Source: Pseudonocardiales bacterium
GTDB taxonomy: Bacteria > Actinomycetota > Actinomycetes > Mycobacteriales > QHCA01
Length of the DNA: 34,005 nucleotides
Direction of reading: 5' to 3'
Assembly: GCA_003244095.1 (NCBI GenBank)
Contig: QHCA01000409.1
Coordinates: 3,855 to 37,859 of the forward strand
The position numbers and the translations under genes were made by a program. Numbering within the stretch: the stretch's first letter is position 1; each line of letters starts with the position of its first letter. This document shows, one piece after another, positions 983-30,693 of the stretch. The notes below the pieces were generated by a model that was not told the DNA's origin, searched no databases, and saw only the letters and a list, made by a program, of their open reading frames with translations.

Positions 983-1216
983 TCAGGCGCCGCCGGGCAG
1001 TAGCCGGCGCAGCGCCTGCACTGTCTCGTCGTCCGCTGTGGCGGCGGCCCGGTTGGCGGCCTGCACCTGGCGGAAGACCTCCTCGCGGTGCACGGGCACC
1101 GACCGCGGGGCCGCGATGCCGACCCGCACGATGTCACCGCGCAGCTCGAGCACCGTGACGACGATGTCGTCGCCGATGATCACGCTCTCTCCCGCGCGGC
1201 GGCTCAGGACGAGCAC
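983..1216 (-). CDS. csrA: CsrA, RNA-binding translational regulator
   Basis: CsrA is a small dimeric protein that binds GGA motifs in mRNA leaders and usually blocks translation. This 77-residue product begins MLVLSRRAGESVIIGDDI, the canonical CsrA N-terminus, and keeps the central VRVGIAAP and VPVHREEVF segments that form the RNA-binding edge. I chose the GTG at 1214-1216 because it gives the standard MLVLSR start and has AGGGAG six bases upstream; a TTG six codons earlier is open but would add an atypical extension. It is the last gene of the flgN-flgK-flgL-fliW operon, 22 bases after fliW. In Bacillus subtilis, CsrA represses flagellin translation and is antagonised by FliW. Several flagellar leaders in this window carry matching GGA hairpins. 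Confidence 0.95.
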   Translation of the reverse strand: MLVLSRRAGESVIIGDDIVVTVLELRGDIVRVGIAAPRSVPVHREEVFRQVQAANRAAATADDETVQALRRLLPGGA

Positions 1217-1238: not shown

Positions 1239-1652
1239 TCACGCCGGGACGCCCGATGCGTGCAGGGGTGCCCGGACCGGCAGGTCGCTGCCGGTGAGCA
1301 CGACCTGGGCGGCCCGGCGGGTCCGGGTGGCGACCACCACAGGAGCCAGGAGGTTGGCGGTCGCGTCGTCGGCGGCGGCGCCGGGAGTCACGACGAGCAG
1401 CACGAGGGCGTCCTCGGCCCGCACGATGCCGAGCATCTCCTGCGTCTCGGCGTCGAGCTCCGGTGCGTAGTCGGGAAAGAACGCCGTCGGCGAGACGACG
1501 AGGAAGCGCAGGTCCGGATCGTCCAGCGACCGCAGGGCGCAGAGCAGGCCCTTGTCGTCGAGCTGGACGAGCACGAAGCGCCGGTGGTCGGGAAATCCCG
1601 GAATCGGGATGACGAAGTCCAGGGCGGGTAGGTCGGCCGTGTTGATCAGCAC
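1239..1652 (-). CDS. fliW: FliW, flagellar assembly factor and CsrA antagonist
   Basis: FliW binds either flagellin or CsrA, so flagellin secretion frees FliW to sequester CsrA and relieve repression of flagellin translation. The 137-residue product has the FliW core, PIPGFPDHRRFVLVQLDD near the N-terminus followed by LRFLVVSP and a central stretch equivalent to the usual DAEVLLVVTP block. The GTG at 1650-1652 is the first usable start after the flgL stop, but its GAAGGA abuts the codon directly, so initiation may depend on coupling to flgL translation 20 bases upstream. The order flgL-fliW-csrA is the classical Gram-positive arrangement, which supports the call. Confidence 0.92.
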   Translation of the reverse strand: MLINTADLPALDFVIPIPGFPDHRRFVLVQLDDKGLLCALRSLDDPDLRFLVVSPTAFFPDYAPELDAETQEMLGIVRAEDALVLLVVTPGAAADDATANLLAPVVVATRTRRAAQVVLTGSDLPVRAPLHASGVPA

Positions 1653-4507: not shown

Positions 4508-4535
4508 CAATCGACCAGACGTTGCCGGCCCTGAG
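4508..4535 (-). promoter_or_regulatory. FliA-type promoter of flgN-flgK-flgL-fliW-csrA
   Basis: On the minus strand: CTCA, 16 bases, GTCGATTG. The -35 and -10 match the pattern seen before fliC, flgB, flbD and flhA in this window, and the -10 resembles the sigma-28 consensus GCCGATAA. The predicted start is near 4501, giving a leader of roughly 70 bases. Confidence 0.65.
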
Positions 4536-5549: not shown

Positions 5550-5577
5550 CTCAGCATCCCCGACGACACGTCGATGA
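5550..5577 (+). promoter_or_regulatory. FliA-type promoter of fliC
   Basis: CTCA at 5550-5553, 16 bases, then GTCGATGA at 5570-5577. The -10 matches six of eight positions of the sigma-28 consensus GCCGATAA. The predicted start is near 5584, giving a leader of about 54 bases that holds the GGA hairpin. The same CTCA-N16 spacing recurs before flgN, flgB and flbD. Confidence 0.7.
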
Positions 5578-5588
5578 ACTCCACGTAG

Positions 5589-5606
5589 CGGCCCACGGAC
5601 GGGCCG
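5589..5606 (+). promoter_or_regulatory. GGA-loop hairpin in fliC leader, candidate CsrA site
   Basis: A perfect 6-bp stem, CGGCCC / GGGCCG, presents the hexaloop ACGGAC, so GGA (5597-5599) sits in the loop, the textbook geometry for CsrA binding. A second GGA at 5628-5630, exactly 31 bases downstream, is part of the Shine-Dalgarno AAGGAGGA (5623-5630). This two-site layout, one hairpin and one on the ribosome site, parallels the flagellin leader bound by CsrA in Bacillus subtilis. That CsrA binds here is inference. Confidence 0.6.
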
Positions 5607-5637
5607 TATCACGACCCCACTCAAGGAGGAAATGATC

Positions 5638-6465
5638 ATGGGTCTGCGAATCAATCAGAACATCGCGTCGATGAACGCGTACCGCAACCTGTCGGTGACC
5701 GACAACCAGATGGCGAAGTCGCTGGAGAAGCTTTCCAGCGGTTTCCGTATCAACCGCGCCGCCGACGACGCGGCCGGCCTCTCGATCTCCGAGGGACTGC
5801 GCTCGCAAATCGGTGGCCTCAAGGTGGCCGTGCGCAACGCCCAGGACGGCGTCAACGTCGTCCAGACGGCAGACGGCGCCCTGAACGAGTCGACCGCGAT
5901 CCTGCAGCGTATGCGGGACCTCGCGGTGCAGGCGTCCAACGACGGCTCGCAGGACACGACCGCGCAGACGGCGGCCAACACCGAGTTCCAGCAGCTCAAC
6001 AGTGAGCTGACCCGGATCTCGGCGACCACCTCGTTCAACGGCAAGAACCTGCTGGACGGCTCCTACGCCGGCACCTTCCAGGTGGGCTCGAAGAACAGCG
6101 CGTCCGACCAGATCACGGTCACGCTGGCCACAGCGGTCGACGCTGCGGGTCTGGGCACCAGTGCCGGAGACCTGACGACCACCGGTGGCGCCCAGTCTGC
6201 TATCGACCTGGTCGACACGGCCATCGGAACGGTCAACGCGACTCGGGCAAGCCTGGGTGCCTACCAGAACCGGTTCGAGCACACGGTGAACAACCTCAAC
6301 GTCGCGGTGGAGAACCTGTCCGCGTCGGAGAGCCAGATCCGCGACACCGACATGGCGCAGGAGATGAGCAATCTGTCTCGCTCGCAGATCCTGCAGCAGG
6401 CCGGCACCTCGATGTTGGCCCAGGCCAACTCGTCACAGCAGTCGATCCTGAAGCTGCTCGGCTGA
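5638..6465 (+). CDS. fliC: Flagellin, filament subunit
   Basis: This is the major filament protein, exported and polymerised at the cell tip. The 275-residue product has the conserved N-terminal D0/D1 segment, MGLRINQNIASMNAYRNL with SGFRINRAADDAAGLSISE, and a C-terminal D1/D0 segment ending in ILQQAGTSMLAQANSSQQSI. The central region is very short, so it is a compact flagellin almost lacking outer domains. I chose the ATG at 5638 rather than the in-frame ATG at 5632, because AAGGAGGA ends 7 bases before 5638 but only 1 base before 5632, and because MGLRINQN is the family start. It has its own FliA-type promoter, a CsrA-like leader and a strong terminator. Confidence 0.97.
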   Translation: MGLRINQNIASMNAYRNLSVTDNQMAKSLEKLSSGFRINRAADDAAGLSISEGLRSQIGGLKVAVRNAQDGVNVVQTADGALNESTAILQRMRDLAVQASNDGSQDTTAQTAANTEFQQLNSELTRISATTSFNGKNLLDGSYAGTFQVGSKNSASDQITVTLATAVDAAGLGTSAGDLTTTGGAQSAIDLVDTAIGTVNATRASLGAYQNRFEHTVNNLNVAVENLSASESQIRDTDMAQEMSNLSRSQILQQAGTSMLAQANSSQQSILKLLG

Positions 6466-8668: not shown

Positions 8669-8696
8669 CTCAACCCCGACTCGCGCCGACCGATGA
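8669..8696 (+). promoter_or_regulatory. FliA-type promoter of the flgB operon
   Basis: CTCA at 8669-8672, 16 bases, then ACCGATGA at 8689-8696. Spacing and the CGATGA end are identical to the fliC promoter. The predicted start is near 8703, giving a leader of about 72 bases for the long flgB-to-flgE operon. Confidence 0.6.
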
Positions 8697-8703
8697 CCAT
8701 CTA

Positions 8704-8745
8704 GAGCACGGACTGCTCCGCACCACCCCTGCCACGGACCGGCAG
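8704..8745 (+). promoter_or_regulatory. Twin GGA-loop hairpins in flgB leader, candidate CsrA sites
   Basis: Two small perfect stem-loops follow one another. Hairpin 1 (8704-8718) is GAGCA / TGCTC with loop CGGAC. Hairpin 2 (8729-8745) is CTGCC / GGCAG with loop ACGGACC. Both loops expose GGA (8710-8712 and 8736-8738), and both carry CACGGAC. A third GGA (8764-8766) lies in the flgB Shine-Dalgarno GGGAG. The GGAs are spaced 26 and 28 bases apart, within the range a CsrA dimer can bridge. The binding is inferred. Confidence 0.55.
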
Positions 8746-19003: not shown

Positions 19004-19031
19004 CTCAGCTTCGGGTGCACCCGGCCGAAAC
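19004..19031 (+). promoter_or_regulatory. FliA-type promoter of flbD-motA-motB-fliL, with a palindrome in the spacer
   Basis: CTCA at 19004-19007, 16 bases, GCCGAAAC at 19024-19031. This is the cleanest example of the promoter set. The last 12 bases of the spacer (19012-19023) are the perfect palindrome CGGGTGCACCCG, directly abutting the -10, a plausible operator. The predicted start is near 19038. Confidence 0.65.
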
Positions 19032-19046
19032 ATCAACTGCGAGGTC

Positions 19047-19081
19047 CCAAGGACGGGCCCTCCGACGGAATCCAAGGACGG
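19047..19081 (+). repeat. Direct repeat CCAAGGACGG in flbD leader, candidate CsrA sites
   Basis: The 10-mer CCAAGGACGG occurs at 19047-19056 and again at 19072-19081, 25 bases apart; the second copy supplies the flbD Shine-Dalgarno. Another GGA lies between (19067-19069). CAAGGACG is close to the known CsrA consensus ACARGGAUG. No clean hairpin places these GGAs in a loop, unlike the other leaders. Confidence 0.45.
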
Positions 19082-19086
19082 ACGAC

Positions 19087-19359
19087 GTGATACTCGTTAC
19101 TCGCCTGAACGGGCTGGTGTTCGCGCTGAACCCCGACCTGATCGAACGTGCCGACTGCACGCCGGACACCGTCGTCACCCTGGTGGACGGAACCAAGTAC
19201 GTCATCACCGAGGCGATCGTCGAGCTCGTCGAGAAGGTCATCCTGTTCCGGGCCCGCGTTCTCGACGCCGCACACACCCTGGAGTCCGACGGGCCCGACA
19301 TCCACGCCGTCACGGACGAGGGTTCCACCGTCCTGCACATGTTGCCTCGGGACGCCTGA
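19087..19359 (+). CDS. flbD: FlbD/SwrD family flagellar protein
   Basis: The 90-residue product begins MILVTRLNGLVFALNPDLIE, the canonical start of the small FlbD (SwrD) family that sits before motA in many Gram-positive and spirochaete clusters and supports motor power. I chose the GTG at 19087 because it gives this start and has AAGGA 10 bases upstream; the frame is open further upstream. The C-terminal half carries the usual IVELVEKVILFRARVL helix plus a short tail. Its stop shares a base with the motA ATG. Confidence 0.9.
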   Translation: MILVTRLNGLVFALNPDLIERADCTPDTVVTLVDGTKYVITEAIVELVEKVILFRARVLDAAHTLESDGPDIHAVTDEGSTVLHMLPRDA

Positions 19360-26790: not shown

Positions 26791-26819
26791 CTCAAGTGTG
26801 CGCGCCGATCAGCCGATCA
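26791..26819 (+). promoter_or_regulatory. FliA-type promoter of flhA operon
   Basis: CTCA at 26791-26794, 17 bases, then GCCGATCA at 26812-26819, a near-consensus sigma-28 -10. The GCCGATC also occurs 9 bases earlier but at a bad spacing. The predicted start is near 26826, giving a leader of about 64 bases. Confidence 0.6.
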
Positions 26820-26842
26820 ACGGGGAGCCAGGAAGGCGACGA

Positions 26843-26859
26843 CGGCCACGGAGCGGCCG
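26843..26859 (+). promoter_or_regulatory. GGA-loop hairpin in flhA leader, candidate CsrA site
   Basis: A 5-bp stem, CGGCC / GGCCG, with loop ACGGAGC, so GGA (26850-26852) is exposed. The stem and loop are nearly the same as in the fliC leader. The next GGA is in the Shine-Dalgarno GGAGG (26881-26885), exactly 31 bases downstream, the same distance as in fliC. Confidence 0.55.
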
Positions 26860-26889
26860 GTCCAGTCGTCAACTGTGCCCGGAGGTCGC

Positions 26890-28929
26890 GTGAGGAACCA
26901 GGGCCTGACCCGGTACGCCGTACCGATCGGGGTCGTCGCCATCATCGTGATGATGGTGGTGCCGTTGCCGGCATTCATCATCGACATCCTGATCGCCGCC
27001 AACATCACCGGCTCGCTGGTGATCGTGCTCATCACGATGTACGTCCGGCGCCCGATCGAGTTCAGCGTCTTCCCCTCGCTGCTCCTCGTCGCCACGCTGT
27101 TCCGGCTGGCCCTCAACGTCAGCGCGACCCGGCTGGTCCTCCTCAACGGCTTCGCCGGCCACGTCATCAACGCCTTCGGCCACTTCGTGGTCGGCGGGTC
27201 GCTGGTCGTCGGCCTGGTGATCTTCCTGATCCTGATCGTGATCCAGTTCATCGTCATCACCAACGGCGCCGGCCGGGTGGCCGAGGTCGGCGCCCGGTTC
27301 ACCCTCGACGCCATGCCAGGCAAGCAGATGGCCATCGACGCCGACCTCAACGCCGGCCTGATCGACGAGAAGGAAGCGCGGGTACGCCGGGCGGACGTCG
27401 CGGCGGAGGCCGACTTCTACGGTGCGATGGACGGCAGCTCGAAGTTCGTCAAGGGCGACGCCATCGCGGCGATCATCATCACGCTGATCAACCTGATCGG
27501 CGGCTTCGCCGTCGGGGTCGCCCAGAAGGGCCTCTCCCCCGCCGAGGCCATCCAGACCTACAGCCTGCTGAGCATCGGCGACGGCCTGGTCTCCCAGATC
27601 CCTGCCCTGCTGCTGTCCGTCGCGACCGGCCTCATCGTCACCCGGGCCACGACCGACGGCGACCTGGGCTCCGACGTCGCGCGGCAGTTCGGCGCGCAGC
27701 GCCGGGCGCTGCAGATCGGCGGCGCCGCGGCGATCGCGCTCTGCCTCATCCCCGGCCTGCCCAAGCTGCCCTTCCTGCTGATCGGCGGGCTGGTGCTGTT
27801 CGCCTCCCAGCGCGGCTCGGCGGCCGAGAAGGACACCGTCGAGACGCCCGCCGAGGAAGCACCGACGGTCGACTCCCCCGAACGCCTCATCGGCGAGATG
27901 CGGGTCGACCCGCTGGAGCTCGCCCTGTCACCCGACCTCGTCGACCTGGTCGACGTCGGGAGCGGGGGTGACCTGCTCGAGCGGGTACGCGCGCTACGCC
28001 GCAAGGTGGCCCTCGACATCGGCATCGTGATGCCACCGGTACGCACCCGCGACGACCTCGACCTGCCGCTCTCGACGTACTCGATCCGGATCAGCGGTGT
28101 CGAGGTGGCCCGCGGCGAGTCGCCGCCCGGTTGCGTCCTGGCCATCGGCGAGGGGCTCTCGGGCATCCCCGGCCGGGCCGCCCGAGAGCCGGTGTTCGGC
28201 CTCGAGGGCAAGTGGGTGCCCGGCGAGCTGCGCCACCAGGCCGAGCTGGCCGGGGCCACCGTCGTCGATCGTGCCTCGGTGGTCATCACGCACCTGTCCG
28301 AAGTGGTCCGTACCCAGGCCAGCCGGCTGCTCGGGCGCGAGCAGGTGCGCGAGCTGGCGGACGTGCTCAAGCGCACCAATCCGGTGGTCGTCGAGGAGCT
28401 CACGCCTGCCCTGCTCAGCCTGGGTGAGGTCCAGCAGGTGCTGCACGCGATGCTCGACGAGGGCATCCCCATCCGCGACCTGGTTCGGATCTTCGAGGCG
28501 CTGTCCCTGCGCGCCAAGACCTCCACCGACCGGGACGGCCTCGTCGAAGCGGTCCGCTCGGCCCTCGGCCCCGCGATCGCCGCCCACCACACCACGGACG
28601 GGACGCTGACCGTGGTCACGCTCGAGCCGCGCCTGGAGCAGTCCCTGCTCGAGTCCCTGCGTCCGGGCGACGGAGGCAGCCATCTGCTGCTCGACGTGTC
28701 GCGGGCCGAGGCGCTGGTCGCCGACGCCGGCCGGCTGATGGAGGTCGGCGAGCAGCAGGGGAAGACTCCGGTCCTCGTGTGCTCACCGCACCTGCGCTCC
28801 CCGCTGCGCCGCCTGGTCCAGATGACCGCGCCCCGCCTGCCGGTCCTGTCCTATACCGAGGTCGGTTGCGCTACCCGCATTGAGACGATAGGGATGGTGG
28901 TGGACAGTGCCCACGCGATTGCTGGTTGA
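26890..28929 (+). CDS. flhA: FlhA, export-gate core protein
   Basis: FlhA is the large gate protein that forms the cytoplasmic export ring and uses the proton gradient. The 679-residue product has about eight membrane helices in the first 310 residues. Within them are [20 protein letters not shown] and the family block [25 protein letters not shown], the cytoplasmic loop between helices. The C-terminal 340 residues form the ring domain. I chose the GTG at 26890 because GGAGG lies just upstream (4-base spacing); an in-frame GTG 5 codons earlier is possible but overlaps that Shine-Dalgarno. It overlaps the flhF-like gene by 23 bases. Confidence 0.96.
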   Translation: [679 protein letters not shown]

Positions 28930-30067
28930 GGGTCCGGACATCGAGAGCCTGCTGGTGCGGGTCCGCGACGAGTACGGCGCCAACGCCCGGATCATCTCCG
29001 CCGAGCGCGTCCGGGTCGGAGGGTTCGCCGGGTTCTTCGCCCGCCAGCGGTACGAGGTGTCCGTCGAGCTCGACGATGCCGGACAGCCCCCGGCGCCACC
29101 TCCGACCGCGGTGCCCCTGACCGCGGTGGCGTGGCCGCGCGAGACGCCGCTGACCGACGCGGGAGCGATGCCGGCCACGGTCGACGCCCTGATGGCGTTG
29201 GCCGACGCCAACGACAGCGCGTCGCTCGACCTCCCGCCCGTACCCGTCACGGTGTCGACCCAGAGCGACAACTTCTCCGCCGTCCTCGCCGGCCTGCGAC
29301 ACCGCGCCGGCTCGGTCACGGCGGACCCGGTCCGGGCCTACCAGCCACCGGTGCTCGACTACCCGCCGGTCGCCGCCGCGGACCTCGACCTCCGGGTACC
29401 TCCGGAGTCCACATCGGGCGCGGGGGCGATGTACGCGGGCCTGCGCAGCCTCGGGTTGCCCGAGCACCTGGCCCTCACGGTGGCCGGGCCGGATCGGTAC
29501 GCCGCACTGGTCCGCACCCTGAGATCGCTGCCCCCGGCACTGCCGCTGCCCGACCGGGCCGGAGCAGTGCTCGTCATCGTCGGTCCCGCCCGGGCGGCCC
29601 TGCCGGTGGCCGCGGAGCTCGCCCGATCACTGAGTACCGATCCCGGCGCGGTGCTGCTCGCCGCACCGGACGGGCCGTCCGACCTCGGCACCGCACGCTG
29701 GATCACCGGCCCGGCCGACGCCGGCCGGCGGGCGCCTGCGCTGCACGGCTGCGACGTGCCCACGGTCGTCGTGGTCGACCTGCCACTCGACGTGAGCAGC
29801 GCCCGGTGGGCGCGCTCGATCATCGACGCGCTGGGTGCCACCTCGGTCTGGACACTGGTCGACGCCACCGACAAGACGCGCGACGTCGCCGCACAATTGC
29901 GCGCGCTCGGGACCGTCGACGCGCTGGTCGTGCACGCCACGGCGGCTACCGCTGACCCCGCCACCGTTCTGGAGCTCGGCCTGCCGATCGCCCTCCTCGA
30001 CGGCCGGGCTGCCAGCCCCCAGGCCTGGGCCGGCCTGCTGCTGGAACGACTCGACGGGACGCCGTGA
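28907..30067 (+). CDS. FlhF-like protein without GTPase motifs
   Basis: FlhF is an SRP-type GTPase that sets flagellar number and place, and its gene normally follows flhA. This 386-residue product keeps the FlhF N-terminal pattern (DIESLLVRVRDEYGANARII and a short basic stretch), a Pro/Ala-rich linker and a C-terminal part with the SRP-GTPase fold order. Its P-loop position reads G226-PARAALP, where FlhF has GPTGVGKTT, so the Lys and Thr that hold GTP are lost. The DTAG position reads VVVVDLPLD. The C-terminal ELGLPIALLDG matches the last FlhF block. I infer a degenerate pseudo-GTPase; no frameshift or stop is seen and codon use is normal, so it is probably functional as a scaffold. Confidence 0.75.
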   Translation: MPTRLLVEGPDIESLLVRVRDEYGANARIISAERVRVGGFAGFFARQRYEVSVELDDAGQPPAPPPTAVPLTAVAWPRETPLTDAGAMPATVDALMALADANDSASLDLPPVPVTVSTQSDNFSAVLAGLRHRAGSVTADPVRAYQPPVLDYPPVAAADLDLRVPPESTSGAGAMYAGLRSLGLPEHLALTVAGPDRYAALVRTLRSLPPALPLPDRAGAVLVIVGPARAALPVAAELARSLSTDPGAVLLAAPDGPSDLGTARWITGPADAGRRAPALHGCDVPTVVVVDLPLDVSSARWARSIIDALGATSVWTLVDATDKTRDVAAQLRALGTVDALVVHATAATADPATVLELGLPIALLDGRAASPQAWAGLLLERLDGTP

Positions 30068-30693
30068 CCCGCGCCGAGCTGCCCGCGATAAACGCCCTCG
30101 TCACCCTCACCGTGTCGGGAGTCTCCGGCGCAGGCGCCGAACAGGGGGTTCCGTCGCGGGTCGAGGACGCGGACGGCCTGCACCTGCGACTGGCCGCTCC
30201 TGATCACCCGCCGGGCGTCGTACCACCCGGCGCGGGATCTATCGTCACGATGCGGTGGACCGGCCCGCGCGGCCTGCACCTGACGCTCACCGAGCTCATC
30301 TCCGTCTCGCGCGATCCCATCGACACCTGGCTGGTCCGCGCGGTGTCCGAGGTGCGGGTGCAGCAGCGCCGGCTCTTCGCGCGGACCTCGGCGTCCGGGC
30401 CGGTACGGCTGGCGACCGAGCCGCGGCCGGACGACGCGGTGCACGGCCGGCTGATCGACATCGGTGAGGGCGGCCTGCGCTGCCGGGTGAAGGAAGGGCA
30501 CGGGATCGCCGTGGGGCAGGAGGTCGCCATCCGGCTGAGCCTGCTCGACCGGCTGCTGTCATTGGAAGGCGTCGTACTGGTGAGCGAGCCCGACCAGATC
30601 GTGCTGACCTTCCAGGCCACGGAAACGCTGGCCCACCAGATCCGCCGCTTCGTCCTGCACAGCCAGGTCCGCGCGCGGCGGCTGCCGACATGA
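30064..30693 (+). CDS. PilZ-domain (YcgR-like) putative c-di-GMP effector
   Basis: The 209-residue product has an N-terminal beta-rich YcgR-like domain (about 1-98) and a PilZ domain (about 100-205). The PilZ motif R103-LFA-R107 (RxxxR) is present in QQRRLFARTS, and the second motif reads D132-IGEGG, where the usual Ser of D/NxSxxG is Gly. YcgR-type proteins bind c-di-GMP and slow the motor by contacting FliG or MotA. Position in the flagellar operon, 4 bases overlapped with the FlhF-like gene, fits. The altered motif may reduce or change ligand binding. Confidence 0.85.
   Translation: MTRAELPAINALVTLTVSGVSGAGAEQGVPSRVEDADGLHLRLAAPDHPPGVVPPGAGSIVTMRWTGPRGLHLTLTELISVSRDPIDTWLVRAVSEVRVQQRRLFARTSASGPVRLATEPRPDDAVHGRLIDIGEGGLRCRVKEGHGIAVGQEVAIRLSLLDRLLSLEGVVLVSEPDQIVLTFQATETLAHQIRRFVLHSQVRARRLPT

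Follow-up and report, generated by a model that had tools for sequence, protein, structure and literature searches.

Does the region preceding flhA, the flagellar export gate gene, carry an RNA control element, and is this element shared with other flagellar operons? The question is raised by an actinobacterial flagellar cluster contained in a 34,005-nucleotide stretch of Pseudonocardiales DNA, analysed as a whole and hereafter called the window, which holds csrA and fliW at its left end. The initial annotation had described an inverted repeat with a GGA loop ahead of flhA, regarded it as a copy of the fliC leader with an identical 31-base distance from loop to Shine-Dalgarno (SD) sequence, and proposed a shared RNA-binding regulator. 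The repeat is present at 26843-26859, and comparison with relatives suggests that the leader (26827-26889) is likely to be an RNA control element bound by a dimer of the cluster-encoded CsrA.

The intergenic region between flhB and flhA carries a promoter motif, two hairpins (HP1 and HP2) and the SD sequence, and fliW adjoins csrA inside the flagellar cluster. The features are as follows, with stem arms and loops separated by hyphens:

983-1216, minus strand: csrA, the predicted binding protein (Pfam CsrA, E 2.3e-21)
1239-1652, minus strand: fliW, open reading frame of the predicted CsrA antagonist (Pfam FliW, E 1.4e-33)
26777: end of flhB
26791-26817, plus strand: sigma28-type promoter motif of flhA, CTCA-N17-GCCGAT (motif scan)
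26827-26837, plus strand: HP1, GCC-AGGAA-GGC, carrying the first GGA site and lying roughly 13 nt downstream of the -10 element
26843-26859, plus strand: HP2, CGGCC-ACGGAGC-GGCCG, with a 7-nt loop (sequence, covariation, arm-swap test)
26881-26885, plus strand: SD sequence of flhA, GGAGG, a putative third GGA contact in the context CCGGA, not ANGGA (sequence)
26890-28929, plus strand: flhA coding sequence with a GTG start (Pfam FHIPEP, E 2.4e-250)

The GTG at 26890 had been favoured as the true start on account of the spacing; it is borne out by alignment with the FlhA starts of relatives, not by the spacing. Directly 3' of flhA, an open reading frame of 386 aa without a Pfam match (28907-30067) is followed by a PilZ-domain gene (30064-30693).

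The motif scan places the promoter motif ahead of both hairpins in the window. Its CTCA-N16-GCCGAT form is conserved before flhA in relatives, and of 55 leaders, 53 have the motif ahead of HP1; the GGA of HP1 typically follows the -10 element by 13-16 nt (exactly 13 nt in 24 of 53). On the strength of this motif, flhA transcription is predicted to start at approximately 26824-26826, ahead of HP1 and HP2, which would put HP1 at the 5' end of the flhA mRNA.

Comparison across relatives indicates that HP2 is no chance inverted repeat. Upstream regions of flhA were taken from genomes of the same order and class, and 56 dereplicated leaders were picked by their HP1 core, a GGA being found 12-32 nt downstream in 53 of them; this HP2 GGA was chosen blind to stems before the stem test. 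In 70% of the 53 leaders, a stem of 4 bp or more encloses the NN-GGA loop, compared with 20% after swapping left and right arms between leaders and 3% at control positions. In a MAFFT alignment, the covariation score of HP2 was 0.240, whereas slid partners did not exceed 0.084; for the share of cells that pair, the corresponding figures are 74% and no more than 44%. Conservation of the loop GGA reaches 90% or more, and the stems differ between leaders through compensatory changes (GGCC/GGCC, GCGCC/GGCGC, GCCCG/CGGGC, GGTC/GACC, GGAC/GTCC); outside the Geodermatophilaceae, the stem is kept in relatives. HP1, overlooked by the initial annotation, is more invariant still: its core, CCAGGANGG, is almost unchanged in 52 aligned leaders, and its outer pairs show compensatory changes. 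The loops are mostly ANGGAN, and the HP2 loop in the window, ACGGAGC, likewise presents the ANGGA motif in a hairpin loop; in about half of the leaders, this loop measures 7-8 nt, against a preferred 6. RNAalifold recovered HP1 alone on alignment A1, because the HP2 loop, varying from 6 to 8 nt, shifts the alignment; pair counting and the loop-length-tolerant arm-swap test were therefore applied. The folding energy of the single flhA leader is not unusual (z = 0.19 vs shuffles) and HP1 is absent from its minimum free energy (MFE) fold, so that the case for the hairpin rests on comparison.

The claim of identical spacing did not hold. The flhA loop GGA (26850) and SD GGA (26881) are 31 nt apart in the window, but the fliC SD, AAGGAGGAA, holds two GGAs; measured from the loop GGA, they lie at 28 and 31 nt, and only the second gives equality. 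In relatives, neither gene holds the hairpin-to-SD distance constant (20-77 nt in flhA, 23-57 nt in fliC), which makes the agreement at 31 a coincidence. The distance that is conserved is that from HP1 to HP2, GGA to GGA, amounting to 19 nt in the window and 18-29 nt in relatives (mean 21.7 nt, sd 2.3, omitting four leaders with doubtful HP2 or start), whereas HP2-to-start has an sd of 11.5 and the distance from the hairpins to the flhA start codon varies between 28 and 83 nt. The flhA leader is thus no copy of that of fliC: a like ANGGA hairpin occurs in both, but flhA has two hairpins about 21 nt apart at the predicted 5' end, and their distance to the ribosome site varies. Direct occlusion of the SD is not general either, given its CCGGA context in the window and the lack of GGA in the flhA SD of many relatives.

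Hairpins of the same kind precede three other flagellar operons in the window:

5550-5630, plus strand: fliC leader, with promoter motif (5550-5575), hairpin GCGGCCC-ACGGAC-GGGCCGT with a 6-nt loop (5588-5607), and SD AAGGAGGA
8669-8745, plus strand: flgB leader, CTCA-N16-ACCGAT followed by two ANGGA hairpins
8704-8718, plus strand: flgB hairpin GAGC-ACGGACT-GCTC
8729-8745, plus strand: flgB hairpin CTGCC-ACGGACC-GGCAG
19004-19089, plus strand: flbD-motAB leader, with promoter motif (19004-19029) and start GTG at 19087
19046-19057, plus strand: flbD hairpin CCC-AAGGAC-GGG
19071-19082, plus strand: flbD hairpin TCC-AAGGAC-GGA, at the SD

One promoter type stands ahead of these three leaders and that of flhA. 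The fliC leader combines a CsrA-type hairpin with AAGGA at the SD, both predicted sites, and the ANGGAN hairpin was found in most fliC leaders of relatives. The two flgB hairpins are 26 nt apart, GGA to GGA; relatives carry GAGC-ANGGANN-GCTC plus a GCC/GGC hairpin, with 90% of 21 leaders forming a stem of 4 bp or more, vs 7% in shuffles. The flbD leaders of relatives have one hairpin, frequently with AAGGA at the SD, and such a stem in 68% of 19 leaders vs 8% in shuffles. Accordingly, flhA belongs to a wider design, and the similarity among these operons makes it probable that several parts of the flagellum are tuned by a single RNA regulator. The leader of the flgN operon (4510-4535, minus strand), in which a GGA lies near a promoter-like motif, was excluded for having no hairpin recognisably conserved in relatives. 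Searching whole genomes for the promoter-plus-HP1 pattern returned several scattered matches per genome besides flhA, and the pattern was rejected as too loose for a regulon count. The flgB and flbD hairpins are absent from the initial annotation. Two in-frame ATGs occur at the fliC start (5632-5640), the second of which (5638) agrees with relatives in start and SD distance.

The CsrA encoded in the window aligns with a solved CsrA over 55 residues and retains L4 and R44 of E. coli CsrA, two residues important for RNA binding in that protein. Across the 299 genomes of the order, csrA was found in 90 and flhA in 88, with both in 85; two genomes with flhA have no csrA match (G053, G178), and the weak flhA match of a further one (G212) is probably spurious. 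Five genomes of family f10 (G060, G102, G136, G160, G172) have csrA with no flhA match, several being incomplete assemblies.

HP1 was present in 31 of the 35 order-set genomes with a readable flhA N-terminus outside the Geodermatophilaceae (f16) and, by pattern, in 32 of 48 in the class set; at two further loci of that set (L209, L210), the promoter, HP1 and HP2 emerge when a start codon farther upstream is taken. No flhA hairpins were found in the Geodermatophilaceae, although csrA is retained; the only HP1 pattern match in this family (L133), located ahead of the promoter, is spurious. In its loci, for instance L014, L115 and L153, some 10 nt separate GCCGAT from the flhA start, and the flhA mRNA may therefore be nearly leaderless. 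The loci of this family lacking the flhA hairpins still have csrA and the GGA site of the fliC leader. At two other loci (L207, L208), the HP2 loop reads ACGGTC instead of ACGGA, with csrA present, possibly a natural loss of one site. Loss of csrA as the cause of hairpin loss is ruled out, as the Geodermatophilaceae and the L207 and L208 genomes keep the gene. In the Micrococcales-type loci that were read, flhA lies close behind flhB and no such leader was seen.

Binding of CsrA to the flhA leader is argued for by the covariation around a conserved GGA loop, the predicted transcription start upstream of both hairpins, the like hairpins before the unrelated operons of fliC, flgB and flbD, and the presence in the cluster of fliW and of a csrA that tracks flhA and keeps L4 and R44. 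Furthermore, the loops mostly match the ANGGAN hexaloop, the solved ligand of the CsrA homolog RsmE (PMC7652899), and their spacing falls inside the 10-55 nt range used for dual-site CsrA binding (PMC6028588), two sites under one CsrA dimer being the usual mode (PMC7652899, PMC6028588). The proposal of a shared RNA-binding regulator, for which CsrA is the candidate, is thereby well supported. Counting against binding are the Geodermatophilaceae, with csrA yet without the flhA hairpins; the HP2 without GGA at L207 and L208 despite csrA; the 7-8 nt HP2 loops, since extra loop bases can weaken CsrA binding (PMC7652899); the CCGGA at the SD of the window and the GGA-less SDs of many relatives; the absence of HP1 from the MFE fold; and the data from C. 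jejuni, whose CsrA binds numerous flagellar mRNAs, flhA not being among the enriched ones (1.2x; PMC4894983).

In the proposed mechanism, transcription from the sigma28-type promoter would begin at the predicted site, and the 5' end of the flhA mRNA would fold into HP1, with its AGGAA loop, and HP2. One CsrA dimer would clamp both loops or, alternatively, one loop together with the SD region 31 nt downstream; bound CsrA would lower flhA translation. FliW, unless occupied by flagellin, would remove CsrA and allow flhA to be made, a relief suggested by analogy with B. subtilis and C. jejuni. Through their own similar hairpins, fliC, flgB and flbD-motAB would come under this control as well. Repression by bridging suits fliC and flbD well and flhA less, because the SDs of the latter often have no GGA; as the sign of the control, repression of flhA is slightly more likely than not.

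Parts of this arrangement are known from other systems. The B. subtilis hag leader, under CsrA-FliW, also has GGA sites ahead of a flagellar gene in a genome with csrA and fliW, but hag encodes flagellin and its site overlies the SD; here csrA and fliW are adjacent within the flagellar cluster, and the export gate gene has two hairpins at its predicted 5' end, with an SD site that is weak or absent in many relatives. The E. coli glgC leader likewise has a hairpin-loop site upstream of the SD, bridgeable by one CsrA dimer, whereas in flhA the hairpin-hairpin and not the hairpin-SD distance is conserved. In the CsrA-FliW regulon of C. jejuni (flaA, flaG, flgI, flaB), several flagellar mRNAs are bound by CsrA, and two ANGGA stem-loops showing compensatory changes are present in the leader of flaA; the sites predicted here are instead on flhA, flgB, flbD-motAB and fliC, with a common promoter type. 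Literature searches, limited mainly to freely accessible papers, turned up no description of CsrA targets in Actinobacteria.

The main rival to repression is stabilisation from the 5' end, whereby CsrA on HP1 and HP2 would activate flhA by shielding its mRNA from 5'-end-dependent decay. Its model is E. coli flhDC, an unrelated gene whose flagellar mRNA has two CsrA-type sites near the 5' end (PMC7652899); protection from RNase E is shown there and is a possibility for flhA. The location of both hairpins at the predicted 5' end, the near-constant distance of HP1 from the -10 element, the variable distance to the start codon and the many SDs without GGA all fit stabilisation, but the studied FliW-type circuits mainly repress flagellin (PMC7652899) and the SD of the window is within bridging distance of HP2, and we consider activation rather unlikely. 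The fixed position and almost invariant core of HP1 could also be read as those of a DNA operator or promoter-proximal element for a transcription factor. HP2, however, keeps its loop while both stem arms change together, the opposite of operator behaviour; two loci with extra sequence between promoter and HP1 (L214, L218) retain the HP1-HP2 spacing, and the CCAGGANGG core does not recur in the other same-promoter operons of the window, making an operator improbable. Any 5' hairpin can stabilise an mRNA, and these lie just upstream of the SD, where they might affect ribosome access or RNA stability with no protein bound; this would assign no role to the unpaired GGA conserved at two sites and sits poorly with a leader no more stable than shuffles, so it is more improbable again. 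A metabolite riboswitch or another structured RNA of known family, suggested by a conserved leader with two hairpins, is scarcely credible, as the conserved core amounts to two GGA loops and Rfam gave no match above its curated threshold, the sole hit being a chance one to mir-598 in the coding region, far under that family's cut-off.

The covarying, GGA-looped leader of flhA and those of three more operons provide concrete sites to mutate, and the Geodermatophilaceae flhA and, possibly, the GGT loop of L207 and L208 provide natural losses as built-in comparisons. If the proposal is true, CsrA-FliW control would not be confined to flagellin, but would extend to the stator operon and to the export gate through which flagellin is secreted. 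More tentatively, and at somewhat short of an even chance, one flagellin-sensing CsrA-FliW RNA checkpoint may span the sigma28-type leaders of flhA, flgB, flbD-motAB and flagellin, with flhA distinguished by a two-hairpin, 5'-terminal clamp. CsrA-FliW in flagellated Actinomycetes would then be more than a flagellin thermostat, covering the export gate, the rod operon and the stator operon.
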